A stretch of 64,000 bases of DNA from Pomacea canaliculata (taxonomy: Eukaryota; Mollusca; Gastropoda; Architaenioglossa; Ampullariidae): the NCBI RefSeq assembly GCF_003073045.1, contig NC_037593.1:7679525-7743524 (forward strand), given 5' to 3'. The position numbers and the translations under genes were made by a program. This document shows positions 13,035-49,200 of the stretch, piece after piece (position 1 is the stretch's first letter; every line of letters begins with the position of its first letter). The notes below the pieces were generated by a model, which was given only the letters and a program-made list of their open reading frames with translations, did no database searches and was not told the DNA's origin.

Positions 13035-13180
13035 AAGGGGAGTGGGCCAACCCTGGAGTTTCAACATCACCAGGTCTACCCTTAGCAGAGGTGGAACAAG
13101 TCCCTAACCCTCTGTCATGTTCTCTAAATCAGTGTAATATTGAAGTTCCCATATGGGGGACGTATCAGATATTACGCTGA
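13035..13180 (+). CDS. Exon-like segment Y, open copy in A
   Basis: A strong acceptor (TTTGTTTTTCTCCCCAG) precedes 146 bp. Entered in phase 1 they read GEWANPGVSTSPG, PLAEVEQVPNPLSCS and WGTYQILR, then TGA at 13178-13180. The copy at 45239-45384 (opposite strand) has exactly the same length and frame with amino-acid-level differences. Other copies (near 17670, 20360, 20690, 37350 and 40880) are degraded. This is probably the 3'-terminal coding exon of an unidentified gene. No domain was recognised. Confidence 0.42.
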
Positions 13181-13384
13181 TAAGAGCAGAGTTTCACATT
13201 TTTCGAAGAAGTCTTTGAAAACGAAAACAATCCAGTAGAAACTGACTTCGCGTCAGTGCGATTGACTAATGATACCCAATATGTCCTGAAACACGGAAAC
13301 AGTTGCATTTAGATTTACGTAATATTCAGGTTTGGTAACACAACATACTTTTTAAATCACTTTTACTTTAAAATTTCTGCATAA

Positions 13385-13740
13385 CTGTAAGCAAATTTAT
13401 TTTCTAACTGCAGCTGTTATAATTTTACTTTTTCCGTAGTTTTATTTACATTATTCTTTATATCTTAATGTAAGAATTACTTTTTGCAATAATATTTGAC
13501 TTAAGATAGCGTAAAGTGTAAAGGGAAACAACTCTAGATTTTCAGATAGTGTTAGTACATGGGAAGCAACTCGCTACTAAATTTATGAAATGGCAGCTAA
13601 TTATAACAAAATTTTTGGATATCTATTAAAGCAATTTTATTTCTAACGCGGTTGTTATCCTTTATATTTTTTTCCTTAGGTTTATTTGCATTATTTTTAT
13701 ACATTAATGTAAGAAATTACTTTTTCGCATGATATTTAGG
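13385..13740. repeat. Local direct repeat of about 230-bp period
   Basis: About 115 bp at 13385-13500 (A/T-rich with CTAACTGCAGCTGTTAT and TTAATGTAAGAATTAC) recurs at about 13615-13735 with small changes. The same doublet is present in copy B (about 18008-18120 and 18240-18345), so it predates the A/B duplication. Confidence 0.6.
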
Positions 13741-14324
13741 CCTGGATGTAATCTCCACAAGCAGACAAAACTAGAATACATAAGGAGAGAAGGATGAACA
13801 GCGCAATGACAAACATAAAGACAACTTGAATTTTCAAACTTTGTTTTTTTCTCTTCTCGGTATCTTTTATCTGGTCTTTCCTCATAAGCGGGGTATCGAT
13901 ATTCGGCTTGTTATTCGTGATTACATGTTACGGTCTATGTGATCCTGGGAATCGAGGCGCTTAACGTAACGGTGGCGTATTTTTTTGTTGCCCCCGACTG
14001 GCACGGGTGGTGAACGAGGTAAGCTAGACGGTTGTCGCGACAGCGGAGGCCACATGTGGTGCCAGCTGCCCAGGTCACGGTTTGATTGTCCCTACTCTAG
14101 TAATCATTGTTAAAACTAGAAACTACGTTTTGCTACACAGCACCATTCAAAGGGTGAAGGAGAGAGTTAGAGTGAGAGTGGGATGTTGATATTGTGCTGA
14201 TGCTTGTCTGTAAGGATAGAACATCGAAAAACAATTTCCTATATGCTTCATGAGGAGCGACGAGGAGGTCAACAGTACTGTCGTACTTGGAGTACTAAAA
14301 CAAACACAATTCCACTACATTCTG

Positions 14325-17300
14325 GCTTGGCGTCTTTCTTGTCTTCCCTGGCGCCTGGTCTGACGATCAGAGGCATGCTGAAGGCGCATCAGGCGGCGCT
14401 GCAGCGGGCCTGATCGCGGAGCGAGTGGCGTGACGCAGCTCGGAACTCTTGCGGTAGAGGAATGCCGTAGACGGCGACTGGCTCCTCCACCATTTCAATA
14501 ACAAAAGGTCAAGTCGCCAGTCCAATATTCCACCTCGGAGAGTTGTCGGTGGGTTCTTCTTCATCATCGTCGTCATCACATCATATGGGACCACTGTTAA
14601 CGCAGAACAAATGGGTGAATACAAATTTCTGTCGGGTCGATTACAAAATTATCTGAAATTGCCCAGATTTCCAAATCCTTTGCGAAGTTAGCTTAATTTG
14701 ACTCATTTAGGAAGAACATGGACTTTATAACCTTAATCGATCGCTGTATAAAATCTTTGACAAATGAGCAGTCGAACGTTTGTCCGGTTAAAGTGGATCC
14801 CACAGGACACTTAAATGACGACTGAATGAAATTAATAATACGCCGAACGACTCGCTAAACTGCGTACCATCAATTGACAAAATATCACGGCAAGTTTAAA
14901 AAGTTTTTAAAAAAAAAAAAAAAAAAATCCGAATGTTCATCTCAAAGTGCAACTTGCTCTCCAGAATTTCGCCTGTTACAAATAACTGTAGTAACCAGCT
15001 TTAGCTGAGTCCATGTAGTAAAGATGACGTCACGGCTCCCACAATACCCTGGCACATGCTTCTGGCAGCTGCTGACGACACACCGGAAATGTTACTCATC
15101 CTACGGCTTCGACGCGGACTCTCACATCGTCATTATTATGCATCGAGCTGAACGTTGGATAGCTGCGTACAGAAAAAATCTGGTCAAAGTTGGTTATAGA
15201 AAAACAGCGTGTCAAGGTCCATCATAGCACAACAACGTGTCAACAACGTCGACGGTGTATGAAGATGGGGAAGCATGTCAGGTTCGACAAAATGATAAGT
15301 ACAAGTACAAGCTTATGGTTTTAGGGAACAAACATGCGAACGTTAGAACAACGTTCTCGTCGTCTGACAGTTCAGAAAGCGTTTGGCGTTGCGTGTTCTT
15401 TCCAGTTCTTTACGAGAAGAAATAGAAACCCACATGCGTCAAGATCGGATTTCTTGAGCATTTTATGTAATCTTGTCTATCCGTAAATTGCTTTGCCTTG
15501 AATACACTTTAACTAATTCTATTCAGCATTAAAAATTTTCAAGTTATGTATTCACCAGATTTAACTGTGTTTTGTTTTTGGTACTTAAGTAAATCTACAA
15601 AATCTACTATAGTATCTCTTTTTAGCAAACCTCTATCGATAAATCTCATTCCTACAGTCGTGGACTGGGTAAGCAAGTATAGTTTAGCAATGTCAACTGT
15701 AATTTTGCTTTTAAAATTCTTAAGTGCAAATAAAGCTTCCCCAAAAAGTATTTTTGTATGGAAAACCATAAATCAATTGTTTAGTAATTTAAGACAAGTA
15801 GGCATGCATTATTTATGTCCATACATTCGATGACTGAACGATATTGGATCGAATGACAGGAGACGGCACGACTGGTTCGCATCATGAGCTACACTGCTCG
15901 TCTTAAAAACTAACGTCTGCCTACAATTACTGTTGCTCAGTCTCTGTAACTTATCCTGTCATGTGTATATACATATATCTGAGCTACTCTTGTCTAGTTT
16001 CTGTAATGAAGTGTTAGTGCAGCCCTGACTGAGCAACGCACGCGCTTGTGGATTGCCCAAAGGTGAGCCACAATCTTCATCCGCCAACGGTTACTCAAGA
16101 CGTTTCATGGTTATAAGCTTAGGGCAGTCTCATCGAAGAATGAGTTCGTCTGCTAATGGGAAAGAAAGAATTCACAAGCGCTGAATGTTATATGGCTTGC
16201 AAAACTAACCACATCAGATTCGATGGCAAATGTGGCCAATTTTTTCGCAGATGGCGCGAGCTTCTGGTATTGGTAGAAATCAATTATAAACAAAAACCAA
16301 ACAAAAGCAAAATGTCCCAAATCCGACTATATTTTATTTTAAAAATTTTTTTAAATCAATTGACAACAAAAGCCCATTTAATTCCCCAGAACGTTGTTGT
16401 TGACATTCTGGGTAAGGCTCGCTATGCGATCACACAATGGCAGCCAAAAGACAGATGTACCTCCGCAGAAACGTTATTGTGTCCGAGCTTGTATATACCT
16501 GGTAAATAAACGTGTGGCTTAGCACATCACTTTTTGCTTAATTTGAAAGCCACAGATTATTTGCTCCACCAAAACAACAGTAATATCTCTTAACGGAAAA
16601 AAACAATGCAGTTCCTTTTCTCCAATCTCTTCAACCCCTTCCCTACCTTCAGAACCCCTTCATGACTGAATAATAATAATTTTATGTTGCTTTTCTAATG
16701 ATTTACTCGCAGCGCTTTATAGAAGTGATAGACAAAACTGTCCTCATAAGCGGAATCACAAACACCATGTAGCCATATTCGCATGTACCACGACACGCCA
16801 CTTCTACAAAGACACACTCACTCATAGTCAAGTAAACACAGACGCAGGTATGCACGCGCATGGTCAGGACAGGGCGCATGAATAAAGGATCTGTTCTGAA
16901 AACCTTTTCACAAAACTATATTACTGTGACAATTAAAAAATAAACAAAGAAATGCTTATTTCACCAAAAATGTTGAATACTGTAAAAAATACTCTTTTCA
17001 TTAAAAAAAATCTAGCTACTTGTCTGTATGATGAAGCAAAATTAGTCAGCCAATGTATTGTAACACTGGCTAAATACGTCTCGTTGATGTTGCTACCCAT
17101 TTACTTGACTGTTAACCTCAGTGAATAAAATAAATCTATGATTTATAGCACACTATTTTTACTGAGAGAAACAAAAACTGTAGAATCACAAAGAAAAAAA
17201 AAGGGGTTAGGCTGAGACACGAACTTGTATTACATATACAACACGTTAATGATGAGACGTATTAGCAGTAAGCTGCCCATCGGGGCCGAATCTTGAGACC

Positions 17301-18960
17301 TCTCAGTAAATCTCCCTTCGCAGCCTGTCCCCTTTAAATGTTTACCCATAGTCTTTTACTATACCCATCTGACGCCCTCCTCCACATACCCCAGGACTCT
17401 GGTGGGAAGCCAAGTCAACCGATATATAACCAAACTGTGGTCACTATTGATGTGCACGCCCAAACATGCCCTCACCTGTGTTTTATTGCTGCTTAATTTA
17501 AAGCAAAGTCGACAGAATCAGTTGGAGGATGTCAGGTCGCCAACTTCAACCTCTAATTAAATGCTTTCGATTGGGTGACGTCTATTGACTAGGAATGAAT
17601 GTGTTGGGGCAAACAGAAGTAATACCGTAACTAACTGTAAGAGCTTACTTTCATTTGTGTTCCTCCCCACGAGGGGAGTGGGCCAAACCTGGAGGTACTA
17701 CATCACCAGGCCGACCCTTAACAGAGGTGGAGCAAGTCCCTAACCCTCCGTCATGTTCTCTAAATTAGTGTAATATCGAAGTCCCCATGTGGGGGACGTA
17801 TCAGATATTACGCTGAGAACAATTTTTTTAGACGAACGGACTCGCCGCAAGCAACTTGCTGGTATGGCGAAAGTCAGAGAAACTACCCGCATCATTCGCT
17901 ACTGAAACACGGAAACAGTTGCATTTAGCTTTACGTAATATTCAGGTTTAATAACACAACATACTATTTAAATCCCTTTTACTTTAAAATTTCTGCATAA
18001 CTGTAAAAGCATTTTATTTTCTAACTGCAGCTGTTATTTTCTTTATTTCTTCCGTAGTCTTATTTACATTATTCTTTATATCTTAATGTAAGAATTACTT
18101 TTTGCAATAATATTTTGACTTAAGATAGTGTAAAAGGGAGACAACTCTAGATTTTCAGTAGTGTAAGTACATGGGAAGCAACTCGCTACTAAATTTATGA
18201 AATGGCAGGCTAATTATAACAAAATTTTGGATATCTATTAAAGCAATTTACGATTTCTAAACGCGGTTGTTATTCCTTATATTTTTCCTTAGGTTTTTAT
18301 TTGCATTATTCTTTATACATAATGTAAGAATTACTTTTTGCAATGATATTTAGGACTGGATGTAATCTCCACGAGCAGACAAAACTAGAATACATAAAGG
18401 AGAGAAGGATGAACAGCGCAAATGACAAACATAAAGACATCTGAATTCTCAACCTTTTTTTTTTTTTCTCTTTCTCTGTATCTTTTATCTTTCTTTCCTC
18501 TTGAGGGGTATCGATATATTCGGCTTGTAGTCCATGATTACATGTACGGTCTATGTGAGCCTGGGAATCGAGGCCGCTTACGTAACGGGTGGAGTATTTT
18601 TTTGTTGCCCCGACTGGCACGGGTGGTGAACGAGGTAGCTAGACGGTTGTCGCGACAGTCGGAGTCCACTGTGGTGCCTGCTTGCCCAGGTCACGGTTGA
18701 TTGTCCCTACTCTAGGTAATCATTGTTAAAACTAGAAATTACGTTTTCTACACAGCACCAGTTCAAAGTGGTGAGGAGAGAGTTAGAGTGAGAGTGGGAT
18801 GTATATTGATGTTTTATCTGTAAGGATATAGCATCGAAAAACAATTCCTATATGCTTCATGAGGAGCGACGAGGAGGTCAACAGTACTGTCGTACTTGTA
18901 GTACTAAAACAAACACAATTCCTACATTCCCAGCATGTACATAGAATTGATGACGATCGA
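14325..18960. repeat. Segmental duplication copy B
   Basis: Direct tandem repeat of copy A; the junction is inside CTGGCTTG at 14322-14330. It retains the 15306-16362 segment that A lacks. Part of that (15306-15825) is also in C (24050-24545), showing the longer form is ancestral. Like A, it carries an inverted THOC6 intron 2 block (about 16930-17205) and a degraded segment Y (about 17670-17815, reverse match of the U flank). Confidence 0.85.
16156..16509 (+). other. 117-codon open frame of doubtful coding status
   Basis: Begins MGKKEFTSAECYMACKTNHI and ends in TAA. Its second half lies in sequence also found in A (about 11755-11880) and near 26640, where the frame is not kept. No domain was seen. 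It spans the join between B-specific and shared DNA, so a chance frame is likely. Confidence 0.12.
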
Positions 18961-30480: not shown

Positions 30481-32077
30481 TAGAGGGGCAGAGCTTGTAT
30501 AGACAACCTCGCGGTGTCTAGTTTGGCTCTGGTGTGTGTTGAATTTTGGACAACCCATTATAAAATGGCGGGTAAGAGAGGGAAGAAAGAGCAACAATAA
30601 CTAACAACAAAGTATAGTTTGCAACTGGAAAATTCATCTATAATTTTATTTGCAGCACAAGTTCTCAAACTCTACTTTACAGATAATATATGTCGCTAGG
30701 ACAACCAACAGATGATCGTACATGTCCACCATTTTTTTGGGAAATTCTTCACTTGGAGTGAAATCGAGGTGCACGAGACTGAATGTGTATGAACGTGATC
30801 TACAATGTCATCACTTGTCGTACTCACCAACAGACAAACATATGGCGCTATTGTTTGGTGAATAGGCTTTGTGTTATCACGGTGTGAATTGTTGGCCATT
30901 TTGTTAAGGTACGAACCTATTGGCCACTGTCCAACAGACAGATTGTACTGATTTGTCAGTCACCAGAGGATTAAACTGAAAATATGTGAAGAATCATCAT
31001 CCTTATGAGAGCAAAGATATGCGAGAGATAAAGACAGATAGGACGAAAGCAATAAAAATAAAGTTTTAAATTCGTTGTATTTGTGTTTGTGGCATTTCCA
31101 TTGTCATCTTTTCTTCCTTATTTTTTTTCTCTATTAATGGAGCATACATTAAATTGCGGTCTAACCACTGACAGCATGTTTCAGTTGCAAACCGTTTCAT
31201 TTTATTTCTAAATTCGTCGCCAACACACAAGTTACGTTCGGTTGAGAAAGACGTCTTTTTATTGCTCGTTTAGTTTCCGCTGTGATCTTCGGACCAGGGT
31301 AGCATTAGTGGAAAACTGACCGCTGGTAAAAGAGTTTAGCAACTGTGTATCATTCTTCCCTGGCACAGGCGAGACACCATTTTAAACACGCTTACAAGAA
31401 ATCGGAAAGACAGCGATGAGAGAGAGAGAGATAAACTAAGTTTTTTAAGATATTGTTGGTACATCAACTTGTGAACATTCCTGTATGTACTCTTTTGTTT
31501 ACATTCTTTATTTCATACTGAGTGATTGTGTTGTATGAGGCAAATGTGAATGTATGTGGTTTCAGAAAGTTATCATTGCGCGACTCTGAGCCACAATACG
31601 AACCATTTACAGCGGTCAGCGGCCTCTAATGCAGCATCACAATCTTCAATCACATCTTTGCCAGCACAATGAAGTATTATTATGTAGAACATAAATAACG
31701 TATAAGCATTAATTTATTTGAATATTTCCAATTATAGATTTCATAAAGAGCATGCGGTCATGTACCATATATCTTTTATTACAAAATAGTAAAGACTTCT
31801 ATGGACTTCTATAGTAATCAACTGTCCGCCGCATCCCCTCACTCCTGATTATTTTTTATTATAAACTCTTAAAGTTTCTAGATGCAACAGAAAATGCAGG
31901 TGTAATATATTAGTGCATGTGACTTGCCTCGTAACAATACATTCTATGCATGTAGGTAAGAAATGAAGTCTACTTTTATTTCTAATCTGTCTAAAGAATT
32001 TTAAGAGCGTTTTGTGGCGTGTGGTGTATGAGACCAAAGTAAGCAGGGACTCAAAATACATAAGTTGACTTCCTTCT

Positions 32078-32257
32078 TGTTGTGTTATTGGTTTGTGGGT
32101 ATTAAGGTGGCACTCATAAACTGTCCAGTTAGAAAACACACAAGAGACACGCTTCATGTCGGCTTCCGCCCCAAGTATATTGAATCTCTTAACCGGAACT
32201 AAACTTTTACGGATTGTTCATTTTGGGAATAAGGCCGAACAATTGCCTTATGTCACA
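32078..32257 (-). repeat. 3' LTR of gypsy copy 2
   Basis: About 180 bp, reverse complement of the 2481-2661 LTR with scattered differences. Flanked on the left by CTTCT. Confidence 0.9.
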
Positions 32258-35200
32258 CCTTTCTTTAAAATGGACATTGTTTCAATATAACTTAATTAAC
32301 ATTAATTTTAATATTCTTGAATTTCCTATTCAAGTCTATGTGCGTTTGATTCGAGTCAATCATTTCAAGTCAAGTCTCTGTGGGATCTTGATGATGCGAC
32401 CACTCTTGGTAGTCTTGACAGGGCTGGTCTGGAGGAGCGATGACTTTGGACGCTGGCACCTTCTGGCTGCGGCTCCTGGACATGGCTCTGGATTGGCAAC
32501 AGGATGTCTGGATCGTCTGAGTGTGTACCAGACAAGGGGTCGAGATCCTCTTCGGACTTTGGGTTTGTTGGAATAAGGACGACTAAGAGTCTTAATGGGA
32601 TAGGTCTGGGATTCTCGGGATTGAGATCTCTGGGAATCAAAGACGGCGGTTGCGTCGTTGGCGACGTAGGGAGTCTCTACCTCATATGACCTGTTGGAAG
32701 AACTTGATGATTGTCCCTGGTGTCCTGGGTTGGCTTCACCCAAACTGGCTGACCTGGTTCCAACTCAGCGGCTGGTCTGGCAGCGGTGTGCTCTGTCGAA
32801 GTTCTGTTTATATTTCAATTCTGCATCTCGTCTTTCTTATGAAAGTCCTTCCTTTCTTTTCCTTTTCTCGGAAACTGAGATGGTATTGTGGGGACATGGT
32901 GCGTAGTCTTCTCCCGAACAACAGTTCTGCTGACTGAGACCTTGCTGAAGTGGCGTAGCGCGATATGTGAGAATCGCTAAATAAGGATCATCTGCCTTCT
33001 TCAGATTGATTTCACAGTTTGAACGGCGCGTTCGGCTTCGCCATTCGCTTGTGGATAGTACGGGCTGCTTGTTGTGTGTGAGTGAACTCGTACTGTTGAG
33101 CGAACGTTTGGAACTGCTTGCTGGAGAACTGCGGCCGTTGTCTGAGATGACGATTTGTGGAATTCCATGGCGGGAAATATGCTCTTAACATGGTTGATGA
33201 CTGTTCCGCGAAGTATTCTTCAGTGTGCCAACTCAATATAACGTGAATAATAGTCACCACTAGTAAGTACTGTTCTTTTTCAGTTCAAAGATGTCCATGC
33301 CAACTTCTGCCAAGGGAATGCTGGTGTGACAGAGGGAATGAGTGGCTCAGGGGAATTGGCCTCTCCTTGAATGCAAATTGTGCACTTCTGTACCATGGAC
33401 TCTATCTGCTTAGAAAGCTTTGGCCACCAACGCTCTCTCTGGCCAGGCACGACATTTTACGATGCCTTGATGTCCAATGTGAAGTCTGTGGAGATTCTGT
33501 TCTCAGTACTTCAGGGATGATCAGTCTTGATCTGTAGAGAAGAAGTCCATCATGTTCTGTGACTTCTGAAACGTACTGTCCAAAACGCTTTCAGTTCTTC
33601 ATGTTCTGGACTAGAACGTGGCCATCCATTGTGGAGATAATACAGCACTGTCTTTACAAACAGTATCTCTTGCAGTCTCGTTCTTGATTTCTTCGATGCG
33701 TTTTTTCACTCGCTGGCAGCTCTGAATCACTTGCTTGATGAAGATCTCTTCCTCTTCACTTCTCTCATCTGTCTGAGCGTTTCTGCTGGGGCTCGTGAGA
33801 GTGTGTCAGCAGTCACGATTCTTGCTTTTGTGTAGACAATGTTGTACTTGAACCTCATCAGGCGCATGCGGAATCTCTGAATTCTCGGAGGTAGATCTTC
33901 AGGTTCTTTGTTTTCAGTAGAGCCAATAATGGCTTGGTGTCGTTTCGATTGTCAGATCACGAAGTCCTGTGATGTAGTCACAGAACTTTTCAACGCCCAA
34001 GTCACTGCGAGTGCTTCACGCTCAACTTGCGCGTACCTGCGCTCAGTTTCCGTCATACTTCTTGAAGCGTAGAAAACTGGCTTGAGGTGACCATCTGACT
34101 GTTTCTGAAGTAATACTGCACCGAGACCGAAGATGAAGCATCTGTTTGAGACGACGGTCGTTTTGTCAGTACCATAGTGTGCCAACACTGGAGCTTCAGT
34201 CAGCTGTTTCTTAATCTTCTCAAACGAGGTTTCTGAGCAGTGTCCAACACCACTCTATGTTTTTCTTGAGCAGTCACGTAGCGGTTTGCTGTCGTTTGCG
34301 AGGTTAGGGCCTGCAAACTTCGCAACGTGGTTAACCATTCCTAACAATCTTCTGAGATCAGAAATGTTGTCTGGCTTGGGAAAAATTCTTCACAGCAGAA
34401 CAGTTTCTCTGGGTCGATGGCGATCCATCTTTCGATATGATGTGCCCGAGAAAGGATATCTTCTCTCTTTGGCAAACTGGCACTTCTCGTCGTTCAGGGT
34501 AATGCCCGCTTCTTGAAGCGTCGACAATCACTTTCTTCAAGTAAACGATCATGTTCTTGCTTGTTCTTACCGAAAATGAGCAGGTCGTCAATGTCACAAA
34601 TCACATTTTCATGGTTCGTCAGAAGTTGAGACATTCGTCGTTGAAATACTTCTGGCCCTGAACTTATCCCGAAGGGTAAGCGTGTATAACAGTACCTTCC
34701 AAAAGGTGTGATGAAGGTTGTTAACTCCTGACTTCCTTCATCCAGTGGAAGTTGATGGAAACCCTTTTTGCAATCAAGCTTTGTGAACATTTTTGCTCCT
34801 GACAGCTGGGCTAACAGTTCATCTGTTGACGGTAACGGGTAGTTCTCTCTGCGAACTGCTTCATTTAGTTTGCTCAGATCGACGCAGATTCTGACTCTTT
34901 CGTCGCTTTTGGGCACCACTACTATTGGGGCGCACCAATCACTGGGCTTGGTGACTGTGCGAATCCTCCCTGTTCTTCAAGTGATCCAATTCTGCCTTGA
35001 CTTTCTGTTTCAAGGGCAAAGGTAGCGTCTGGAGCTGCTACTGCATATGGAACAGCTTGTTCTTTCAGACGAATCTTGTAAGGATCTTGTAGACTTCCTA
35101 GTCCTCTGAAAAGTTTGGGAATTCTTCCTTGTACGTTTTTCGTGGTCCTCTATAACTGTGTTGATTCTCTCAATCAACTTCAAAGCTGTAATGGCTGGTC

Positions 35201-36445
35201 GACCTAGCAATGGTTCTTCAAGTGTTTTACGACATACACATCTGCAGTGCAGAGACATTCTTGTATGTCAGTTTTGCATTGAACATGCCTTCCACAGCTA
35301 TTCAACACGACCTGGACCAATACAGTTTCTTGCGCACCTTCTGCATGGTCGCTTGGCTGCTGGAACTGCGGTCTGAGGTACGACGGTAACATCAGCTCCG
35401 GTGTCAAGCTTAAACATATTCTCTGTGTCTTCCATCAGGAGACTGACTTTCCAAGGATCTGTTGTCACACTGCCTACAATCATACCATGTAAGCTTCTTC
35501 GTCTTCTTCTTCTCTTCACTGTGTGAATCGTAGAAGAACCTGAAGAGCGACAGACTGCAGCGTAGTGACCAAATCTTGGAACATTTTCTGCATTTAGCGT
35601 TCTTTGCAGGACAACATCTCTGTTGTGGGACCTTTTCCGCATCTAGAGCATGGCTTAGTCTCTGGTTTCCCCGAAGGCCTGGCTTCGTACCGCAACGAAC
35701 TTTTCGCTGACCTTTCTGAATCTTGTTGATGTTTTCTCAACTGTACTTTCTCGCTGTTGCTTGCCAACATCGAGTGTGCTTGAGTCTTGGACGTCTCATG
35801 AGCTCTGCAAATTTCTATTGCTTTCTGGAAGCTTGAGTGTTTTCTTCTGCAACAATTTTTCACGCATAGTGTCATCTTGAACACCGATCACAAGTCTGTC
35901 ACGAATCATGCGGTCAACATCTTTGAAATCACATGATTTTGCTAACTTGCGTGAAAACTGCGACGTAAGTATCAACTGACTCATCCATGTTTTGGTTTCG
36001 GCTATGAACTTGTAGCTCTCATACATCTATGTGTGCTACCCAAACAAAAGTCGTTGAACTTGTCGATGACAGTCTGAATATCTTTGTCGTTCTCCCCTTC
36101 TGCAAAGGATAATCCTTCATAGATTTTGTGCGTCCTCACCAATGCAAGCTAATAGAACTGCACAACGATAAGCCTGAATCTTCTTTATCAAGGCGCGTAG
36201 CTACCTCATAGTTCTGCACTGACGAATAAATTTTTTTCCAATTTACTTCAATGTTAGAAGACAAATCCAGCTTTGAGGGAACAGGAACGTTTGCAGTGAG
36301 TGTGTCTCTGATGTGTCTCCGCCATCTTGCGAGAAATGTCACTTTGCGAACGTACGACGCAATATTCAAAATGAGAAAAACGTGCCACCTGAAAGTTTCT
36401 GGAGAAATCACACAGCTAGCACTTTGCTGCTCACTTCTGACACCA

Positions 36446-36626
36446 TGTTGTGTTATTGGTTTGTGGGTATTAGAAGGGTGGCACTCATTAAACTGTCCAG
36501 TTAGAAAACACAAGAGACAGCTTCTTGTCGGCTCCCGCCAAGTATATTTTGAATCTCTTAACCGGAACTAAACCTTTTACGGATTGTTCATTTTGGGAAT
36601 AAGGCCAACACTTGCCTTATGTCACA
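36446..36626 (-). repeat. 5' LTR of gypsy copy 2
   Basis: 181 bp, adjoining on its left the reverse of the primer-binding region (CTTCTGACACCA) and on its right the target duplication CTTCT. Confidence 0.9.
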
Positions 36627-38361
36627 CTTCTGTTATTAAATCCGAGATCTGTATATCTCTAAAGATATCGCGTATTAGCCAAAAATATAATACAAATGAG
36701 AATCAAACCATCTGAGTATATGGAATTATATCCTGACACCAGGGACGTATATAGGTTCATGCTGATACCGTTCGACGCAAATAAACTTTGTAAAGTGAAA
36801 GTAGTAAATTGTTCCTGAGAGTAAGTAGCAAGTTAAACATCGCTCCTGGTCCAGAATAGATCAAATGAGTATTTTTATATGCTTTATTATAATTAGCCTG
36901 CCATCTCATAAATTTAGTAGCGAGCTGCTTCCATGTACTAACACTACTGAAATCTAGAGTGTTTCCCCTTTTACACTTTACGCTATCTAAAGTCAAAATA
37001 TATTGCAAAAGTAATTCTTACATTAGGGTATAAAGAATAATGTTAATAAAACTACGGAAGAAATAAAAAAAATAATAACTCCCGCAGTTAGGAAATAAAT
37101 TGCTTTACATTTATGCAAAACTTTTAAAGTAAAGGTTATTTAAATAGTATTTTGTGTTACCAAACCTGAATATTACGTAAAGCTAAATGCAACTCTTTCC
37201 GTGTTTCATTGTAGGTCGGTCATCGTTCGTCCAATGGGTATTTGGTTCTTTTAAACTGATCTTAGGTGCGCGATCTACGTAAGTGTCAAAACGATGAAGC
37301 ACAAAACACTGTTCTTATCAGCTTGATATCTGATACGCCCCCTACACATGGGGACTTCGATATTACACTGATTTAGAGAACAAGACAGAGGGTTAGGGAC
37401 TTGCGCCACCTCTGCCAAGGGTCGGCCTGGTGATGTACCTCCAGGATTTCTTTACTCTCCTCTAGGGGAGAAAAACAAATCAATGTCAGCTTTGAGAGTT
37501 ACGGTATTATTTCTGATTACCTCAACACATTCATTTCTAGTCAATAGACGTCACCCAATCGAAAGCATTTAATTAGAGGTTGAAGTTGGCGACCTGACAT
37601 CCTCCAACTGATTCTGTCGACTTTGCTTTAAATTAAGCAGCAATAAAACACAGGTGAGGGCATTATTGGGAGTGCACATCAATAGTGGCCACAGTTTGGT
37701 TATATCGGTTGACTTGGCATCCCACCAGAGTCCTGGGGTATGTGGAGGGAGGGCGTCCGCTGGTAAGTAAAAGATATGGCGTGATAACATTAAAGAGGGG
37801 ACAGGCTGTCAGAAGGGAGGATTTCCTCAGAGGTGCTCAAGATCGGCCCCGATGGCGAGCTTTCACTGCTAATACGTCTCATCATTAACGTGTATGCAAG
37901 TTCGTGGTCTCATTGCTTTCTCTCTCCCCCTCTCCGACGACTGGAGCCTTAAGAGTCGACCGGTACTAAGTAAGTGACGATGATGACAGCAAGTGACAAA
38001 TGATTCGGAAACGTCAGTAAAATTATTTTTCCGTTACATGTAATTTAATCTTAATTATTGCTTGTTTCATCTGCAGCTGTTTATCAAATGTGTTTTTTGC
38101 GTACTAGTCCAGTAATGTAAGGTAGTGGTATAGGGTAAGCGCACACTTTTTTTTCTGGCTTCGATGCCTAAGTATGAAAACCTAACACAGGTGATTATTA
38201 TGATTGTGGAGGTAGCAACGAAGTGTTCTTTTGGAAACGATGACCGTTACCTCTCGGCACGTTCTGATGACATCACAGAACAGCTCTTGTCTTGTAGAGT
38301 GGTTTCCCTTGGTGCGACTGGCGTACACAAGTTACAAATTATTTTGGAATCAAATTTCTTC

Positions 38362-38623
38362 ATGCCAGAAGTGAGTTAATCATTATTACAATCAGTTCCG
38401 CTACCTGATTTCTTTTAAAGACATTAATAAAGCTTACAGTAAATGGAAATCAGTTTACTTTGTAAAAATTTTAGTTTTTAAATCCAGGGATATTTTGAAC
38501 CTGACTACAGTTAGTAAACTGAGCTGATTATTCTTAATGAGCACTGTTTGGTCTCATGTAACAGAATAAAGGGAAAACAGGTCGACAGTTCCCATACACA
38601 ATAGTGTACGATCAGTGTTTCTC
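38362..38623 (+). pseudogene. THOC6: Truncated THOC6 head in U1
   Basis: Copy of THOC6 coding exon 1 (ATG CCA GAA, 38362-38370) with its GTGAGT donor, a 194-bp intron and the first 59 bp of exon 2 (38565-38623). After FPYTIVYDQCFS the sequence leaves THOC6 homology and stops within two codons (24 codons in all). The matching TGACGTCA of the promoter reads TGACATCA here (about 38267-38274). Promoter, donor and acceptor are kept, so transcripts starting here could be short decoys or could splice onward to the real exon 2 at 46477. Confidence 0.8.
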
Positions 38624-38729
38624 TGGCTGAGAAATAGGGCCGTTAAGGGAAGTTACACTCCCAGCCCGGCGTGTTTGGGAAGCGTAAAGTGCATCGCCCC
38701 CTTTCGGGTTTTGGGAGAACTCACTCCCT

Positions 38730-38845
38730 CAGCCCTCCAAAGCCCCACCTTAAAAACACCTCGCAGCCCTTCATAGTCCCTCAGCCCTTCAAAGCCCCAC
38801 CCTAAAAACACTTCTCAGCCCTTCAAAGCCCCTCTCAGCCCTTGG
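38730..38845. repeat. Short C-rich tandem repeat (U1)
   Basis: Repeated CCTCAGCCCTTCAAAGCCCC / ACCCTAAAAACACCTC motifs, about 38-60 bp per unit. Duplicated at 42310-42428 in U2. No function was recognised. Confidence 0.7.
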
Positions 38846-38904
38846 TAAATACCACCAGACAAAAAAATAGACATGATTCATCAATTTATTATATACAAGC
38901 AGAT

Positions 38905-39413
38905 ATACATGGTTTTAATATTTATTTACAACAAAGAATTTGTCACAAAGGCAGACCAAAAATATACATTGCAATTTATCATATTCACATACAAGCAAAT
39001 AAAAGGGTTTTAATATTTATTTACAACAAAGAATTTGAGTCTTCAAAGACTTCAGGCTAGTTGTTGCGAATACCTGACCCCCCAAAAAAAGAAAAGAAAA
39101 AAGATCACTACAATCTTCAAAACAATTTATGAGTTAAAAGCAAAAAATAAATATGGATATAATATTTATATACAACAAAGAATTTGTTGCGAATGCCTGA
39201 TCCCGCCCCCCCCCCCAAAAAAAAATGAAAAAAATCATTACAATCTTCAAAACAACTTATCATATGCATATACAAATACAAGGCAAAAAAAAAGGGGGGG
39301 GGGAATATTTATTTAAAACAAAGAATTTGAGTCTTTAAAGTCTTTAAGCTAGTTGTCGCGAATACCTGATCAAAAAAAAAAAAAAAAGTCTTTACAATCT
39401 TCAAAACAAGCTC
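38905..39413. repeat. Minisatellite-like array, about 130-bp unit, about 4 copies (U1)
   Basis: Each unit carries ATTTATTTACAACAAAGAATTTG, GCGAATACCTGA, an A- or C-rich tract and TACAATCTTCAAAACAA. Repeated in U2 at 42500-43001. The homopolymers vary most between units and copies. Confidence 0.7.
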
Positions 39414-39615
39414 GAGCTTGTATAGACACCGCTGTTAGTTTGGCTCTGGTGTGGTTTGTTGAATTTTGGACAACCCAACAAAAGCGAGTAAGAGAGGGAA
39501 AAAGAGCAACAAAAATAACAACAAAGTATAGTTTGTAACTGAAATTCATAAATTTATTTGCACAGTTTCAAACACTTTACAGATAATATATGTCCGCTAG
39601 GACAACCAAAGATGA

Positions 39616-39722
39616 TCAGTACATGTCCACCCATTTTTTGACATCTTCACTTGGAGTGAAATCGAGGTGCACGAGACTGAATGTGTATGAACGTGATCTA
39701 CAATGTCCATCACCTTGTCGTA
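39616..39722 (-). repeat. Exon-like segment Z, copy in U2
   Basis: Same 107 bp as 43210-43316 with one amino-acid-level change (SEDVKKWVDMY). See that entry. Confidence 0.35.
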
Positions 39723-41850
39723 CTCACCTACAGACAAGTTTTTAAAATTATGTTGGACATACTTGTGAACCATTCCTGTATGTACTCTTTTGTTATTACA
39801 TTCTTTATTTCATACTGAGTGATTGCGTTGTGATGAGGTGTGGGCGAATGTATATATATATATGAATAATGTATGTGTATTCAGAAAGTATATCCATTGC
39901 TCGACTGAGCCCACAAAATAGTAAAGACTTCTATGTATTTATAGTCCATCAACTGTGCATTATTTCGATTATTTTTTTATTATAAACTCTTAAAGTTTTC
40001 TAGATGCAACAGAAATCATGCAGGTGTATATATATTAGTGCAGTGACTTGCTGTAACAATACATTCTATGCATGTAGGTAAGAAATGAAGTCTACTTTTA
40101 TTTCTACTGTCTAAAGAATTTAGAGCGTTTTGTGGCGTGTGTGTGTGTAAGACCAAGTACACAGGGACTCAAAATCAGATAAGTTGACTTCCTTCTGTTA
40201 TTAAATCAGAGATCTGTGTATCTCTAAAGATATCGCGTATTAGCCAAAAATATAATACAAATGAGAATCAAACCATCTGAGCATATGGAATTATATCCTG
40301 ACACCAGGGACGTATATAGGTTCATGCTGATACCGTTCTAAGCAACTAAAACTTTGTAAAGTGAAAGTAGTAAATGTATCCTGAGAGTAAGTAGCAAAGT
40401 AAAACATCGCTCCTGGTCCAGAATAAGATCAAATGAGTATTTTTATATGCTTTTATTATAATTAGCCTGCCATTTCATAAATTTAGTAGCGAGCTGCTTC
40501 CCATGTACTAACACTACTGAAAATCTAAAGTTGTTTCCCTTTTACACTTTACTCTGTGTAAAGTCAAAATATCATTGCAAAAAGTAATTCTTACATTAGG
40601 GTATAAAGAATAATGTAAATAAAACTACGGAAAAATAAAAATATAACAGCTGCAGTTAGGAAATAAATTGCTTTTACAGATATGCAGGAATTTAAAGTAA
40701 AAATGATTTAAATAGTATGTTGTGTTACCAAACCTGAATATTACTTAAAGCTAAATGCTACTGTTTCCGTGTTTCAGAAATAGTTGGCTATAGCATGACT
40801 AGTTCTTTAGAATAAAAATAGTTAAAATTGGCAAAGAGAAGCCCTGGTACTTCTTTCCTTGCTTGTTCTTATCAGTGGAATATTTCGTACGTCCCCCGCC
40901 CCATCTGGGGATGTATATATTTCTCTGATTTAGAGAATAAGATGGAGGGTTTTAGGGACTTGCTCCTTCTCTGCCAAGGGTCGGCCTGGTGATGTCATAA
41001 CTTCAGGATTGGCCCCCTCCCCTCCAGGGGAGAAATACAAATGAATGTTAGATTTAAAAGTTAGTTACGGAATTATTTCTGATGACCTCAACACATTCAT
41101 TCCTAGTCAATAGACGTCACCGAATCGAAAGCATTTAATTAGAGGTTGAAGTTGGCGACCTGACATCCTCCAACTGATTCGATCGACTTTGCTTTAAATT
41201 AAGCAGCAATAAAACACAGGTGAGGGCATGTTTGGGCGTGCACATCAATAGTGGCCACAGTTTGGTTATATCGGTTGACTTGGCATCCCACCAAAGAGTC
41301 CTGGGGTATGTGGAGGGAGGGCGTCAGCTGGGTAAGTAAAAGATATAGCATGATAACATTAAAGAGGGGACAGGCTGTCAGAAGGGAGGATTTCCTCAGA
41401 GGTGCTCAAGATCGGCCCCGATGGCGAGCTTTCACTGCTAATACGTCTCATCATTAACGTGTATGCAAGTTCGTGGTCTCATTGCTTCTCTCTCTCCTCC
41501 CCCTCTCCCGACGACTGGAGCCTTAAGAGTCCGATCGGTACTAAAGTAAGTGACGATGATGACAGCAAGTGACAATGATTTCGGAAGCGTCAGTAAAATT
41601 TTTTTTCCGTTATGCATGTAATTTAATCTTAATTATTGCTTGTTTCATCTGCAGCTGTTTAATCAAATGTGTTTTTGCGTACTAGTCCAGGAAATGTAAG
41701 GTAGTGGTAGTAGGGTAAGCGCACACTTTTTTTCTGGCTTCGATACCTAAGTATGAAAACCTAACACAGGTGATTATTATTATTGTGGAGGTATCAACGA
41801 AGTGTTCTTTCTGAAACCATGACCGGCGGTTACCTCTCGGCATGTTCTGA

Positions 41851-41858
41851 TGACGTCA
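41851..41858. promoter_or_regulatory. CRE palindrome in U2 THOC6 promoter copy
   Basis: TGACGTCA, at the same position relative to exon 1 as 46180-46187. Binding by CREB/ATF proteins is known for this motif; activity here is inference. Confidence 0.5.
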
Positions 41859-41944
41859 CAGAACAGCTCTTGTCTGGTAGAGTGCTTTCCCTTGGTGCGA
41901 CTGGCGTACACAAGTTACAAATTATTTTGGAATCAAATTTCAGC

Positions 41945-42207
41945 ATGCAAGAAGTGAGTTAATCATTGTTACAATCAGTTCCGCTACCTGATTTCTTTTA
42001 AGACATTAATAAAGCTTACAGTAAATGGAAATCAATTTATTTGTAAAAATTTTAGTTTTTAAATACAGGGATATTTTGTTGAACCTGACTTCAGTTAGTA
42101 AACTGAGCTGATTATTCTTAATGAGCACTGTTTGGTCTCATGTAACAGAATAAAGGGAAAACAGGTCGACAGTTCCCATACACAATAGTGTACGATCAGT
42201 GTTTCTC
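41945..42207 (+). pseudogene. THOC6: Truncated THOC6 head in U2
   Basis: Exon 1 copy (ATG CAA GAA, 41945-41953) with donor GTGAGT, and the first 59 bp of exon 2 (42149-42207). It then switches to the same foreign sequence as U1, giving a stop shortly after CFSG. Nearly identical to U1, so the truncation happened once and was duplicated. Confidence 0.8.
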
Positions 42208-42499
42208 TGGCTGAGAAATGGGGCCGTTAAGGGAAGTTACACTCCCAGCCCGGCGTGTTTGGGAAGCGTAAAGTGCATCGCCCCCTTGCGGGTTTTGGGA
42301 GAACTCACTCCCTCAGCCCTCCAAAGCCCCACCCTAAAAACACCTCGCAGCCCTTCATTGTTCCTCACCCTTCAAAGCCCCACCCTAAAAACACCTCTCA
42401 GCCCTTCAAAGCCCCTCTCAGCCCTTGGTAAATACCACCAGACAAAAAAATAGACATGATTCATCAATTTATTATATACAAGCAGATATACATGGTTTT

Positions 42500-43001
42500 A
42501 ATATTTATTTACAACAAAGAATTTGTCACAAAGGCCTGACCAAAAAATATACATTGCAATTTATCATATTCACATACAAGCAAAATAAAAGGGTTTTAAT
42601 ATTTATTTACAACAAAGAATTTGAGTCTTCAAAGACTTCAGGCTAGTTGTTGCGAATACCTGACCCCCCAAAAAAAGAAAAGAAAAAAGATCATTACAAT
42701 CTTCAAAACAATTTATCAGTTAAAAGCAAAAAATAAATATGGATATAATATTTATATACAACAAAGAATTTGTTGCGAATGCCTGATCCCGCCCCCCAAA
42801 AAATGAAAAAAATCATTACAATCTTCAAAACAACTTATCATATACATATACAAATACAAGCCAAAAAAAAGGGGGGGGGGTAATATTTATTTAAAACAAA
42901 GAATTTGAGTCTTTAAAGTCTTTAAGCTACTTGTCGCGAATACCTGATCAAAGAAAAAAAAAAAAAAAAAAAAAAGTCTTTACAATCTTCAAAACAAGCT
43001 C
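42500..43001. repeat. Minisatellite-like array (U2)
   Basis: Counterpart of 38905-39413, with differing homopolymer lengths (e.g. A-run at about 42955-42975). Confidence 0.7.
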
Positions 43002-43209
43002 GAGCTTGTATAGACACCGCTGTTAGTTTGGCTCTGGTGTGGTTTGTTGAATTTTGGACAACCCAACAAAAGCGAGTAAGAGAGGGAAAAAGAGCAACAA
43101 AAAAAAAAAAAACAACAAAGTATAGTTTGCAACGGAAATTCATAAATTTATTTGCACAGTTTCAAACACTTTACAGATAATATATGTCCGCTAGGACAAC
43201 CAAAGATGA

Positions 43210-43316
43210 TCAGTACATGTCCACCCATTTTTTGAAATCTTCACTTGGAGTGAAATCGAGGTGCACGAGACTGAATGTGTATGAACGTGATCTACAATGT
43301 CCATCACCTTGTCGTA
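43210..43316 (-). CDS. Exon-like segment Z, possible 3'-terminal exon
   Basis: On the reverse strand, after an AG at 43317-43318, the frame reads RQGDGHCRSRSYTFSLVHLD, then FTPSEDFKKWVDMY and TGA at 43210-43212. An upstream in-frame TGA lies immediately before the acceptor, consistent with an exon border. AATAAA follows about 60 bp downstream (reverse of 43145-43150). Good stop and poly(A) spacing suggests a true C-terminus, but the acceptor has a weak pyrimidine tract and the family is not recognised. Also in U2 (39616-39722) and degraded in U1 and near 28840-28970. Confidence 0.38.
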
Positions 43317-45238
43317 CTCACCAACAGACAAACATATGGCGCTATTGTAGTTGGTGAATAGGCTTTGTGTTACAGGTGTGAATTGTTGGCCATTTGTTAA
43401 GGTACGAACCTATTGCACCCAAACACAGATGTACTATTTGTCAGTCACCAGAGGAATAAACTGAAAATATTGAAAATCATCATCCCTTATGAGTCAAGAA
43501 AGATATAGCGAGATAAAGACAGATAGACGAAAGCAATAAAAATAAAGTTTTAAAATTCAGTTGTCTTTGTGTTTGTGGCATTTCCATAGTTCATCTTTTT
43601 CTCCCTTTTTTTTTTTCTCTATTTTATGGAGCATGCATTCAATTGTCGGTCCTAACCCTGACAGCATGTTCAGTTGCAAACCGTTTCACTTTATCTTTCT
43701 AAACGCCAACACCAAGTACTCGGTTGAGAAAGACGTTTTATTGCTCGGTTTATTGCCTGTGATCTCGGGACCAGGGTAGCAATTAGTGAAAACTGACCGC
43801 TGGTAAAAGTTAGCACTGTGTACTCATTCCTTCCCTGGCACAGGCGAAACCATTTTAAAACACGCTCACAAGAACATCGGAAAGACAGCGAGAGAGAGAG
43901 AACTAAGTTTTTAAGATTATGTTGGACATACATGTGAACCATTCCTGTATGTACTCTTTTGTTATTACATTCTTTATTTCATACTGAGTGATTGTGTTGT
44001 AATGAGGTGTGGGCAAATGTGAATGTATGTGTATTCAGAAAGTATCCATTGCGCGACTGAGCCCACAAACGAAACCTTTACAGCGGTCAGCGGCCTCTAA
44101 TGCACACACAATCTTCAATCACATCATTGCCACCAATGAAGTATTATTATGTAGACATAAATAACCATAATAAAACATTAATTTATTTTGAATATTTCCA
44201 ATTATAGATTTTCATAAAGAGCAGCGTCATGCACCATATATGTCTATCCTTTTATTAGAAAATAGTAAAGACTTCTATGTATTTATAGTCCATCAACTGT
44301 GCATTATTTCGATTATTTTTTTATTATAAACTCTTAAAGTTTTCTAGTTGCAACAGAAATCATGCAGGTGTATATATATTAGTGCAGTGACTTGCTGTAA
44401 CAATACATTCTATGCATGTAGGTAAGAAATGAAGTCTATTTTATTTTCTACTGTCTAAAGAATTTAGAGCGTTTTGTGGCGTGTGTGTGTGAGACCAAGT
44501 ACACAGGGACTCAAAATCACATAAGTTGACTTCCTTCTGTTATTAAATCAGAGATCTGTGTATCGCTAAAGATATCGCGTATTAGCCAAAAATATAATAC
44601 AAATGAGAATCAAACCATCTGAGCATATGGAATTATATCCTGACAGCAGGGACGTATATAGGTTCATGCTGATACCGTTCTACGCAAATAAAACTTTGTA
44701 CAGTGATAGCAGTAAATGTATCCTGAGAGTAAGTAGCAAAGTAAAACATCGCTCCTGGTCCAGAATAAGATCAAATGAGTATTTTTATATGCTTTTATTA
44801 TAATTAGCCTGCCATCTCATAAATGTAGTAGCGAGCTGCTTCCCATGTACTAACACTACTGAAAATCTAGAGTTGTTTCCCTTTTACACTTTACGCTATC
44901 TAAAGTCAAAATATCATTGCAAAAGTAATTCTTACATTAGGATATAAAAAGAATAATGTAAATAAAACTACGGAAGAAATAAAAAAAATAATAACAACCG
45001 CAGTTAGGAAATAAATTGCTTTAGATTTATGCAAAAACTTTAAAGTGAAAAATATTTAAATAGTATGTTGTGTTACCAAACCTGAATATTACGTAAAGCT
45101 AAATGCAACTGTCTCCGTGTTTCATTACAAGTCGGTCATCTCTCTTCCTTGCGGCATTTTCTGATATCCTTGAAAATGTGAAGGTCGCGATCTACGTCAG
45201 TTTCGAAACGATGAAGCACTGTCCAAACAATGTTCTTA

Positions 45239-45384
45239 TCAGCGTAATATCTGATACGTCCCCCATATGTGGACTTCGATATTGCACTGATTTAGAGAAC
45301 ATGATGGAGGGTTAGGGACTTGCTCCACCTCTGCCAAGGGTCGGCCTGGTGATGTAGTATCTCCAGGGTTGGCCCACTCTCCTC
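45239..45384 (-). CDS. Exon-like segment Y, open copy in U3
   Basis: Reverse strand: acceptor CTCCCCAG, then GEWANPGDTTSPGRPLAEVE, QVPNPPSCSLNQCN and WGTYQILR, ending TGA at 45239-45241. Same 146-bp length and phase as 13035-13180. It lies upstream of, and divergent from, THOC6. Probably the last coding exon of an unidentified gene whose other exons are not visible here. Confidence 0.42.
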
Positions 45385-46089
45385 CTGGGGAGAAAAACAA
45401 ATGAATGTCAGATTTCCTCAGAAACACATTCATTCCTAGTCAATAGACGTCACCCAATCGAAAGCATTTAATTAGAGGTTGAAGTTGGCGACCTGACATC
45501 CTCCAACTGATTCGATCGACTTTGCTTTAAATTAAACGCTAATAAAACACAGGAGAGGGCATGTTTGGGCGTGCACATCAATAGTGACCACAGTTTGGTT
45601 ATATCGGTTGACTTAATTGGCATCCCACCAGAGTCCTGGGGTATGTGGAGGGAGGGCGTCAGATGGGTAAGTAAAAGATTTTGCGTGATAACATTAAAGA
45701 GGGGTCGTGCTGTCAGAAGGGAGGATTTCCTCAGAGGTGCTCAAGATCGGCCCCGATGGCGAGCTTTCACTGCTAATACGTCTCATCATTAACGTGTATG
45801 CAAGTTCGTGGTCTCATTGCTTCTCTCTCTCCCCCTCTCCCGACGACTGGAGCCTTAAGAGTCCGACCGGTACTAAAGTAAGTGACGATGATGACAGCAA
45901 GTGACAATGATTTCGGAAACGTCAGTAAAATTATTTTTCCGTTATACATGTAATTTAATCTTAATTATTGCTTGTTTCATCTGCAGCTGTTTAATCAAAT
46001 GTGTTTTTGCGTACTAGTCCAGGAAATGTAAGGTAGTGGTAGTAGGGTAAGCGCACACTTTTTTTTCTGGCTTCGATGCCTAAGTATGA

Positions 46090-46273
46090 AAACCTAACAC
46101 AGGTGATTATTATGATTGTGGAGGTAGCAACGAAGTGTTCTTTTTGAAACGATGACCGTTACCTCTCGGCACGTTCTGATGACGTCACAGAACAGCTCTT
46201 GTCTGGTAGAGTGGTTTCCCTTGGTGCGACTGGCGTACACAAGTTACAAATTATTTTGGAATCAAATTTCAGC
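46090..46273 (+). promoter_or_regulatory. THOC6: THOC6 proximal promoter / 5' UTR
   Basis: Immediately upstream of the THOC6 start. It contains TGACGTCA (46180-46187), a CRE-type palindrome, in less AT-rich DNA than its surroundings. The whole block is conserved in U1 and U2. The exact start of transcription is not visible. Confidence 0.5.
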
Positions 46274-49200
46274 ATGCCAGAAGTGAGTTAATCATTATTA
46301 CAATCAGTTCCGCTACCTGATTTCTTTTAAAGACATTAATAAAGATTACAGTAAATGGAAATCAGTTTACTTTGTAAAAATTTTAGTTTTTAAATCCAGG
46401 GATATTTTGAACCTTACTACAGTTAGTAAACTGAGCTGATTATTCTTAATGAGCACTGTTTGGTCTCATGTAACAGAATAAAGGGAAAACAGGTCGACAG
46501 TTCCCATACACAATAGTGTACGATCAGTGTTTCTCGCCATGCGGAAAGTATCTTGCAGCAGGAAGCAATTATGGGGACATAGCCATTTTCAAGTGAGTCG
46601 GCCCTTTTTTTTTTCTTTTGTTGATTCTACAAGTTTTTGTTTCTCTCAGTAAAGAAATTAGTGTGCTAATAAATTCATAGATTTTATATTTTTATTCACT
46701 AAGGTTAACAGTCAAGTAAATGGGTACCAACATCAACGTGGACGTATTTAGCCATTGTTACAATACATTGGCTGACTAAATTTTTCATCATACAGACAAT
46801 AGTGAAAATAGCTAGTTTTGTTTTAATTAAAAAGAGTAATTTTTTAACAGTATTCAACATTATTGGTGAAATAAACATATTTTTAGTTGATTTTTGATTA
46901 TTTTATTCCAGCATGTCCGCTGCACTTTCTTCAGATGCTACAGAAAAATCTAAACACCCAGTATTCATATTCAAAGGTGTGTTTTTGGAATCTATATACT
47001 TTTCTTTGGAAAACACATTAATAAACATTGCATGGTTTTCTTTTAACCCATCTTAAGTTCATTTCTTTTAAATTTTTTATTCATGCAACAACTGTTTTTC
47101 ACCAGCATTATGCCCCATCACAGTAATTGGATGGATAATATACTGTATGTATGACAATTATTTTCACAAAAAATTAATAGTTATAAAGCACATTTAGAAA
47201 TTATATCAAATAAAACTCACAAGTTTTTGATACTCAAATTGCTTATTTACATCTTGTGAGATGTGCAGTTACTTTTGAGGCAATTCTGAAAAAGTTAACT
47301 TTTTTTCCAGGTTGTAAAGATGGTGGCATCTTTTGTTTAACATCAACAGAGACATTTCTCCTCAGGTATGTCAGCATAACACAACAGCCACAATGTGATT
47401 ATCTCTCATGATTAGGTATTGGCATATTATGTAACAATAGCAACTGAATTAGAAGAAATATATGTGTATGTATGTGAGTTAGTTAGGGGTTGGGACTGAG
47501 TTTTACTTAGTTCCTTAATGTTCTAACTATGACTTATTTCATCTATGTTGATATCATTGATAAATTTATCACATATAACCTTGTTGAAAATTAGATCAAA
47601 CAATATTCTCACATATTCAAACATTTAGTGCAGGAGATGGGGAAATTCAAGCTTGGAGATGGAGTGATTTAACAGCAAAGGTGAGAAACATTTTTTTTTC
47701 TTTTTGCTGCACTTTATTAATGTGATAAAAGATTTTTTTGTCCAGCCATCATTTTATGTACATTATATACCACCTACTATCTTCAGGCTAGAGTAGAACA
47801 AATCCTTGCTGTCTGTTTTACACCTTGAAATCATCTCAGAGCCTGAGCTCATTGCACAATTGTGAATTAATGGTTAAAAATTCTCAAGACCTTCATGTTA
47901 ACTAATTGATGAATATGAGAAATCATTGGATGTTTTTTGCTTCAAATTAGCTTTATCAAGCAAATTATTTAAGAGTTTTGATTCTTCTTAGTTTGGTAGA
48001 ATATTGGATTGGTATGAAAAGCACTAAATATGCTGATAAATTGGATGTATGCTTGTTTTTTTTTTTTTTTTTTTTTTTTAAAGACTGCAAAGTTGGCATG
48101 GTCTCTGACCCTTCCAAGAAGGTGGGTACTACAGTTTGTGTAGATTTGGAGAAACATTGTGTGTGTTTACAAATACTGATGGTATTTTTTGTAATGACTG
48201 CTTGTATTTTGCTTCCACATTTGAACTCTCACTTCTTATAACATCAGCTAATTTATATATTCTACATCATGATTTATTGATAAGATTTAGTTTATTTATT
48301 CTTTAGAATTCTGCAGTCTGAAAGATTTTTAAAAATATGAACTGAATGTCTTGAATAAATCATAACTGGTCTATCATCTTCTGATATTCTGTTTACTTCG
48401 TGTTCTCACAAAAATACTTGGTTTTCTTCTAATTAATCAGATCAGATTGTTTGGATCATGCCAAAATGTGGCAGTGTTGTGTTTATAGTATTAATGTATT
48501 GTGTATTGTTGCCTTAAGATCTTTGAATTAGATTAAAAACAATATTTGAATGCCTAAGGCTTGATTAGTAATTTTGCTTAGTTTATCTTACAGTGGAGTG
48601 CTGGCTAATGCAGAAGTAAACTCCATGATTATTAATCAGCAGTCAGTGAGTAAATCTGCTCTTTTGCTAAACTTTTTCACTGCTACTTTACCTACTGATT
48701 GTTTCAGCTGAAATACATGAAATATAATGTTCATATTTAAGTTCAGTTTTATTGAGACAAACAGTTGTAACTTAGTAATTTGTTTAGCAGGCAGGGTTAC
48801 AGCTGGCTGTCTGACCAGAGGGAATTGTACACTGTATAAGAACTTTGGTCCTGGAAAACAGTAGCTCTCTTTTATTTGAGTATGGTATGATTCTATAACT
48901 ATTTTTAAAATAGTGTAAAAGGTGAAAAGGTGACATTAAAACATTAACTGAAGATGGTAGTCAGAAACCACTATCAGTACATTATGCCTGAAATATTTGT
49001 AAGAACAGCACCTTGCTCATTGACTAATTAATTTATTCACAGAGTTATAGGAATGGAGTTTGGTTGTATCTGAAGAGTGTCTGTGCAGGGCTTCTGCTAA
49101 GGCTAAATTCTTTGGGGTCCCAGGGACCCCTTCTTCAGATTTTTAAGGGGTCCCTGTTCTTCGCCCAGATTTGAATGGGACCCCATTGACAAAAATTGAA

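Follow-up and report, generated by a model that had tools for sequence, protein, structure and literature searches.

The head of the THOC6 gene of Pomacea canaliculata is repeated upstream of the gene as truncated copies, which sit in tandem units that also carry a sequence resembling U2 small nuclear RNA (snRNA). We identified this array in a stretch of 64,000 nucleotides (the window; C4:7679525-7743524, with bare positions below being positions in the window) of a genome that comprises 440 Mb in 24 contigs. The array most probably (about 0.75) arose recently, when unequal or template-switching recombination within a cluster of U2-like repeats flanking THOC6 duplicated DNA in tandem; the truncated heads would be passengers and are most likely neutral leftovers.

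The head of the gene comprises exon 1 (46274-46282), intron 1, and exon 2 (46477-46592), all on the + strand, and the gene runs on to approximately position 51919. Copy A (38362-38623) and copy B (41945-42207), both on the same strand as the gene, repeat exon 1, intron 1, and the initial 59 bp of exon 2; copy B starts ATG CAA GAA. The original prediction had described three such heads (the third spanning 46274-46535), a common break in exon 2, and reading frames that stop after 24 codons, and each of these features was recovered. All three heads are present in the sequence, homology of copies A and B to the gene ends after 46535 (base 59 of exon 2), and the two copies, if spliced as proposed, read MPE... 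or MQE... and run to NKGKTGRQFPYTIVYDQCFSG* as 24-codon dead ends. Copy A differs from the gene by 2 substitutions in 262 aligned bases and copy B by 7 in 260. The third copy had been taken to be the real gene, and exon pieces joined by eye indeed match nearly all of human THOC6 (residues 25-341 of 341; 7apk_F, E 6e-87), such that the downstream gene looks complete. A genome search with 46600-47320 (the rest of intron 2 and exons 3 and 4) found no exons 3 and 4 behind truncated heads; matches elsewhere were recovered at four places, none of which follows a truncated head, and only over 46602-46900. Two further heads, E1 (C4:7661510-7661771) and E2 (C4:7669299-7669574), are located outside of the window.

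The repeated unit is 3.6-4.3 kb in size, with head-to-head spacings in the window of 3.58 and 4.33 kb, and homology reaches approximately 2 kb upstream of exon 1. Each unit has the order Y, Ins (in some units), Z, U2-like sequence, THOC6 promoter, exon 1, intron 1, 59 bp of exon 2, and X, and thus includes pieces of dispersed repeats in addition to the U2-like sequence. The predicted tandem triplication therefore stands with respect to the three heads and their shared break, but it understated the extent of the repeat and missed both the U2-like sequence and the repeat cluster. The spacer that follows copy A lacks Ins (Y-Z, 39410-40191, +), whereas that following copy B includes it (Y-Ins-Z, 42998-44533, +); the right half of Y together with Ins is part of another dispersed repeat of approximately 700 bp. 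The U2-like sequences are at 37279-37460 in unit A (51.0 bits against Rfam RF00004), 40849-41022 in unit B (34.7 bits, which is under the gathering score of 46), and 45197-45382 adjoining the gene (77.4 bits), all on the + strand. The promoter region that follows (45817-46273, +) is specific to THOC6 and includes a cAMP response element (CRE), TGACGTCA. A genome search with 45800-46210 returned full-length matches at the five THOC6 heads only, together with one weak partial match (72%, E 8e-12).

The junction between exon 2 and X is identical in all four truncated copies (A, B, E1, and E2), and it probably arose once since it is the same in each of them. X spans 38624-39409 (+) after copy A and 42208-42997 (+) after copy B, in both cases fused to exon 2 and derived from the interior of a dispersed repeat. 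A search with 38624-39911, in which the best 40 of 343 candidates were scored, indicated at least 126 matches in the genome. In alignments of the left border of X, the dispersed element continues past the start of X in 10 of 10 rows (8 of 9 listed loci), and nine of these rows have GTTTC close to the junction on either side. Judged from these borders, X represents part of the interior of a longer dispersed element and not a whole insert, because at the other loci examined the element continues beyond the ends of X. A clean transposon insertion into exon 2 was considered and ruled out, given that the ends of X are internal to the dispersed element.

We infer the mechanism, the order of events, and neutrality from this anatomy as follows. 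One event would have fused exon 2 after base 59 to the internal repeat piece X and then to spacer Y, yielding the unit described above. This unit would then have been copied again and would have exchanged sequence with other copies, with the upstream THOC6 heads carried along as passengers that have no maintained role. With A0 and E2 set aside as poor stretches (they diverge by 7-19% in most modules), divergence between unit copies is 0.7-2.9% for X, Y, Ins, and Z, 0-2.7% for the 262 bp head, and 3.0-5.9% for the promoter region among A, B, E1, and the gene. The values for X, Y, Ins, and Z and for the promoter are close to the heterozygosity of 1-2% published for P. canaliculata (PMC6129957).

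Several observations weigh against this scenario. The ancestral left flank (W) is without X and the left neighbor of Y in two units is sequence other than X; the data therefore do not show where X originated. The U2-like module diverges by 5.6-15.4% among A, B, E1, and the gene, which is more than the rest of the unit; the unit has therefore not evolved as a single block, and the U2-like module has a history unlike that of its surroundings, as exchange among U2-like copies would give. E1 is identical to A over 262 bp, yet their promoters differ by 5.9% and their X by 2.8%. Moreover, all splice sites survive, with the donor and acceptor strings GAAGTGAGT and TGTAACAGAATAAAGG in all five heads, and the exon pieces differ from those of the gene at 0, 1, and 0 bases in A, B, and E1, respectively. 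The near absence of change in the exon pieces could mean constraint, although a comparison of 68 bases has no power to judge selection, and intron 1 is likewise unchanged when E1 is compared with A, in line with either conversion or allelism.

Survival of the donors led to the proposal, made in the original prediction, that the upstream heads are working alternative promoters, with transcripts that start at A or B, skip the truncated exon 2 pieces, and splice to 46477 to give forms of THOC6 that start with MPE or MQE; the other possibility named there was that such transcripts serve as short decoys. The predicted donors are indeed kept in the upstream copies, which retain a start codon as well as a usable donor, and the exon pieces are nearly unchanged. 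The truncated exon 2 pieces are without a 5' splice site, and under exon definition such pieces tend to be skipped, with an upstream exon 1 being joined to 46477; transcripts from A or B might take this route. The CRE palindrome TGACGTCA is intact in the gene, B, and E1, whereas A and E2 have TGACATCA in its place (this is one motif, picked by eye), and the altered element and promoter divergence of 3-6% would speak against maintained function. The upstream heads could thus start transcripts, but the donor of exon 2 and everything after it are lost, and we consider a role as alternative promoters to be unlikely. Literature searches recovered nothing on THOC6 in Pomacea and, in those parts of the sources that were accessible, nothing on alternative promoters of THOC6. 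A more improbable explanation still is that the THOC6 head is captured cargo of a U2-like unit, since elsewhere such units continue without the promoter, exon 1, and exon 2. Nearly all of intron 2 of THOC6 (46602-46900, +) also occurs beside U2-like copies elsewhere, on C2 and C4, with no exons 1-2 between. The pieces bordering the interval from the promoter to exon 2 (45817-46601) are nearly adjacent in the cleanest pair of such copies, at C2:29.138 Mb and C4:7.647 Mb, where matches to 45816 and 46602 are 5-6 bp apart. Intron 2 of the gene differs from these copies by 2.3% and 3.7%, respectively. However, the same arrangement would result if a THOC6-derived copy had lost 785 bp, and the distances among the gene and the copies on C2 and C4 do not favor either direction. 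Tandem duplication with the heads as passengers remains our preferred reading.

The least probable of the explanations weighed is that the triplication is an assembly artefact, resulting from uncollapsed haplotypes or misjoined repeats. The assembly is based on PacBio reads corrected with Illumina data, removal of alternative contigs was limited to those <200 kb, and heterozygosity is 1-2% (PMC6129957). E1 and E2 are on a neighboring contig, 56-64 kb upstream, which ends at a gap of 100 N (7671925-7672024), and the end of this left contig (C4:7632863-7671923) matches the start of the contig of the window (C4:7672035 to window position 40578). The match starts approximately 10 bp from the first base of the right contig, extends to the last bases of the left contig, and is collinear over approximately 30 kb, up to window position 39592. 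Within its final 9 kb, the left contig has one unit (E2) more than a simple overlap would require, and its end rematches 38685-40578. The cleanest 3.8 kb of the overlap has 0.8% mismatch; poorer parts are indel-rich, with gaps outnumbering mismatches. An artefact accounts for E1 and E2, but not for A, B, and the gene, which are consecutive on one contig with no N and differ from each other. Because the same exon 2/X junction is also present on the other contig, the truncated copies are unlikely to be purely artefactual.

Approximately 40 kb around the gap is probably present twice in the assembly. The overlap most likely represents contig ends from two haplotypes that were left unmerged, and these haplotypes may carry different numbers of copies; a genuine duplication of 40-50 kb is the less likely alternative. 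Because the contig ends overlap, the genomic copy number of THOC6 heads is uncertain, and we rejected five separate heads in one haploid genome as a likely count. E2, which lies at a contig end that is indel-rich and possibly chimeric, may be the counterpart of A, since both are without Ins and both have TGACATCA in place of the CRE. Two copies of a long terminal repeat (LTR) retroelement in the window, at 2481-7075 (+) and 32078-36627 (-), are both absent at the matching places of the overlapping contig and are therefore probably polymorphic. Their LTRs are approximately 182 bp long. The former has identical LTRs and matches to protease and integrase, while the latter is within the left part of unit A and splits the Y-Ins-Z of that unit (30491-32077, +) from the remainder. 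On the other contig, spacer Y has an insertion of 3.1 kb (C4:7662699-7665839) with a repeated target of approximately 8 bp.

The U2-like sequences are the most novel part of the array and stranger than the THOC6 heads. A genome search with Rfam RF00004, in which the 46 matches scored are a lower bound, revealed at least 14 canonical matches at 186-192 bits and at least 32 at 47-125 bits, with 10 of the latter at C4:7.64-7.80 Mb and five at C1:33.03-33.22 Mb. The U2-like copies that were examined score 35-95 bits, compared with 186-192 for canonical U2 of the same genome. Members of this family were identified in the units of the window, at C1:33.03-33.22 Mb and C4:7.77-7.80 Mb, and on C11, C9, and C2. 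Relatives lacking THOC6 heads also form repeats at other places, for example a tandem repeat of 9.75 kb at C4:7.775-7.795 Mb. The window also includes minus-strand U2-like sequences at 13037-13225 (-) and 17673-17886 (-), within a local tandem duplication (11742-14322 and 16362-18929). Family members are preceded by a proximal element of snRNA type, of which 20 of 26 bases are common to one canonical and one family element. The distance from this element to the RNA start is 37 bp in both of the canonical genes measured and 36-39 bp in the four family members where both motifs were found, and a start-like motif, picked by eye, is present in 13 of 19 family copies.

Between this promoter and the U2 body is a head of 68-130 bp, located on the + strand at 37209-37309 in unit A, 40777-40863 in unit B, and 45125-45230 in the unit of the gene. 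Comparison of 20 of 31 rows (11 same-head repeats and doubled, partial, or poor copies were left out) gave mean identities over 190 pairs of 0.85 both upstream and in the body and of 0.54 in the head, compared with 0.52 for shuffled heads. Among 16 close pairs that were chosen, head identity ranged from 0.40 to 0.90. The copies on C9 and at C1:33031, for example, share identities of 0.98 and 0.95 upstream, 0.91 in the body, and 0.96 downstream, with 0.52 in the head. Heads are related, though far diverged, in 14 of the 16 pairs, because no more than 3 of 200 shuffles reached their score. Heads of B and the gene, and of A and B, scored no better than shuffles, and the pairs denoted b-c and b-d dropped to shuffle level once the first 35 head bases were removed. 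Looser scoring gave head identities of 0.56-0.90, with no shuffled baseline. Alike heads were found in E1 and A (0.90) and in C11a and C11b (0.83), and heads in the 9.75 kb tandem repeats share 98.5-100% identity from one repeat to the next, which indicates stability over short times. Far flanks of the U2-like copies are not always conserved (down to 0.54), and conservation of the body falls below that of the near flanks in several pairs, an observation that argues against simple purifying selection. Two of the 20 heads were searched against the genome and each matched only itself, and no exact 16-mers of 19 heads were found outside of the family in the examined loci (approximately 0.7 Mb, both strands counted).

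In all six model alignments (three C1 copies and the gene, A, and B units), the canonical branch-point recognition region (GUGUAGUAUC) is replaced. The canonical Sm site AUUUUUG was not detected as ATTTTTG in any of 19 aligned copies; 14 have ATTTAGAG and one has ATTTTGAG. Structure prediction recovered stem IV and the 3' hairpin, mostly kept, and chose other pairing for stem IIa. Support from covariation is weak, with a covariation term of -0.25 and two-sided change in 3 of 44 pairs. It is tentatively suggested, as a doubtful possibility, that these copies comprise a family of RNA genes derived from U2, in which the snRNA-type promoter and the 3' body are conserved and the 5' head is hypervariable. 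Its members would be expressed, diversifying RNAs in which another sequence, differing in almost every copy and perhaps acting as a guide, has taken the place of the end that reads the branch point, and expansion of the family would have dragged the THOC6 heads along. The lost Sm site, weak covariation, and replaced branch-point region would speak against an active U2-like RNA, and a pseudogene family with exchange in the flanks is possible too.

Elsewhere in the window, a match to CDP-alcohol phosphatidyltransferase (Pfam PF01066; 55399-55551) marks a gene downstream of THOC6, and a scan of the window for transfer RNAs found none.

The array resembles other cases of partial tandem (segmental) gene duplication that left truncated copies, in having a common breakpoint, divergence of a few percent, a dispersed repeat at the junction, and an intact gene that ends the array; it differs in that only the head of the gene is repeated, within units that carry U2-like sequences. 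The primate RNU2 array of tandem U2 snRNA genes reportedly has remodelled flanking junctions, a description attributed to Pavelitz et al. in 1999. It is similar in its tandem U2-related units and its rearranged junctions with neighboring DNA, whereas the U2-like copies of Pomacea are divergent and their heads are not homogenised. Fly and mouse likewise have families of U2 snRNA isoforms, with several U2 variants per genome, but those variants are working U2, while the copies in Pomacea have a replaced and variable 5' branch-point part (the comparison is with the part of that source available to us; PMC4291461).

The overlap of contig ends calls for caution when counting copies at loci such as this one. 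We know of no animal with a set of snRNA-derived RNAs that have a fast-changing 5' end, and a literature search turned up none in the accessible portions of the sources. The U2-like family would constitute such a set, provided that it is expressed. The THOC6 case itself appears to be one in which the head of a gene has turned into a passenger of a neighboring repeat cluster.

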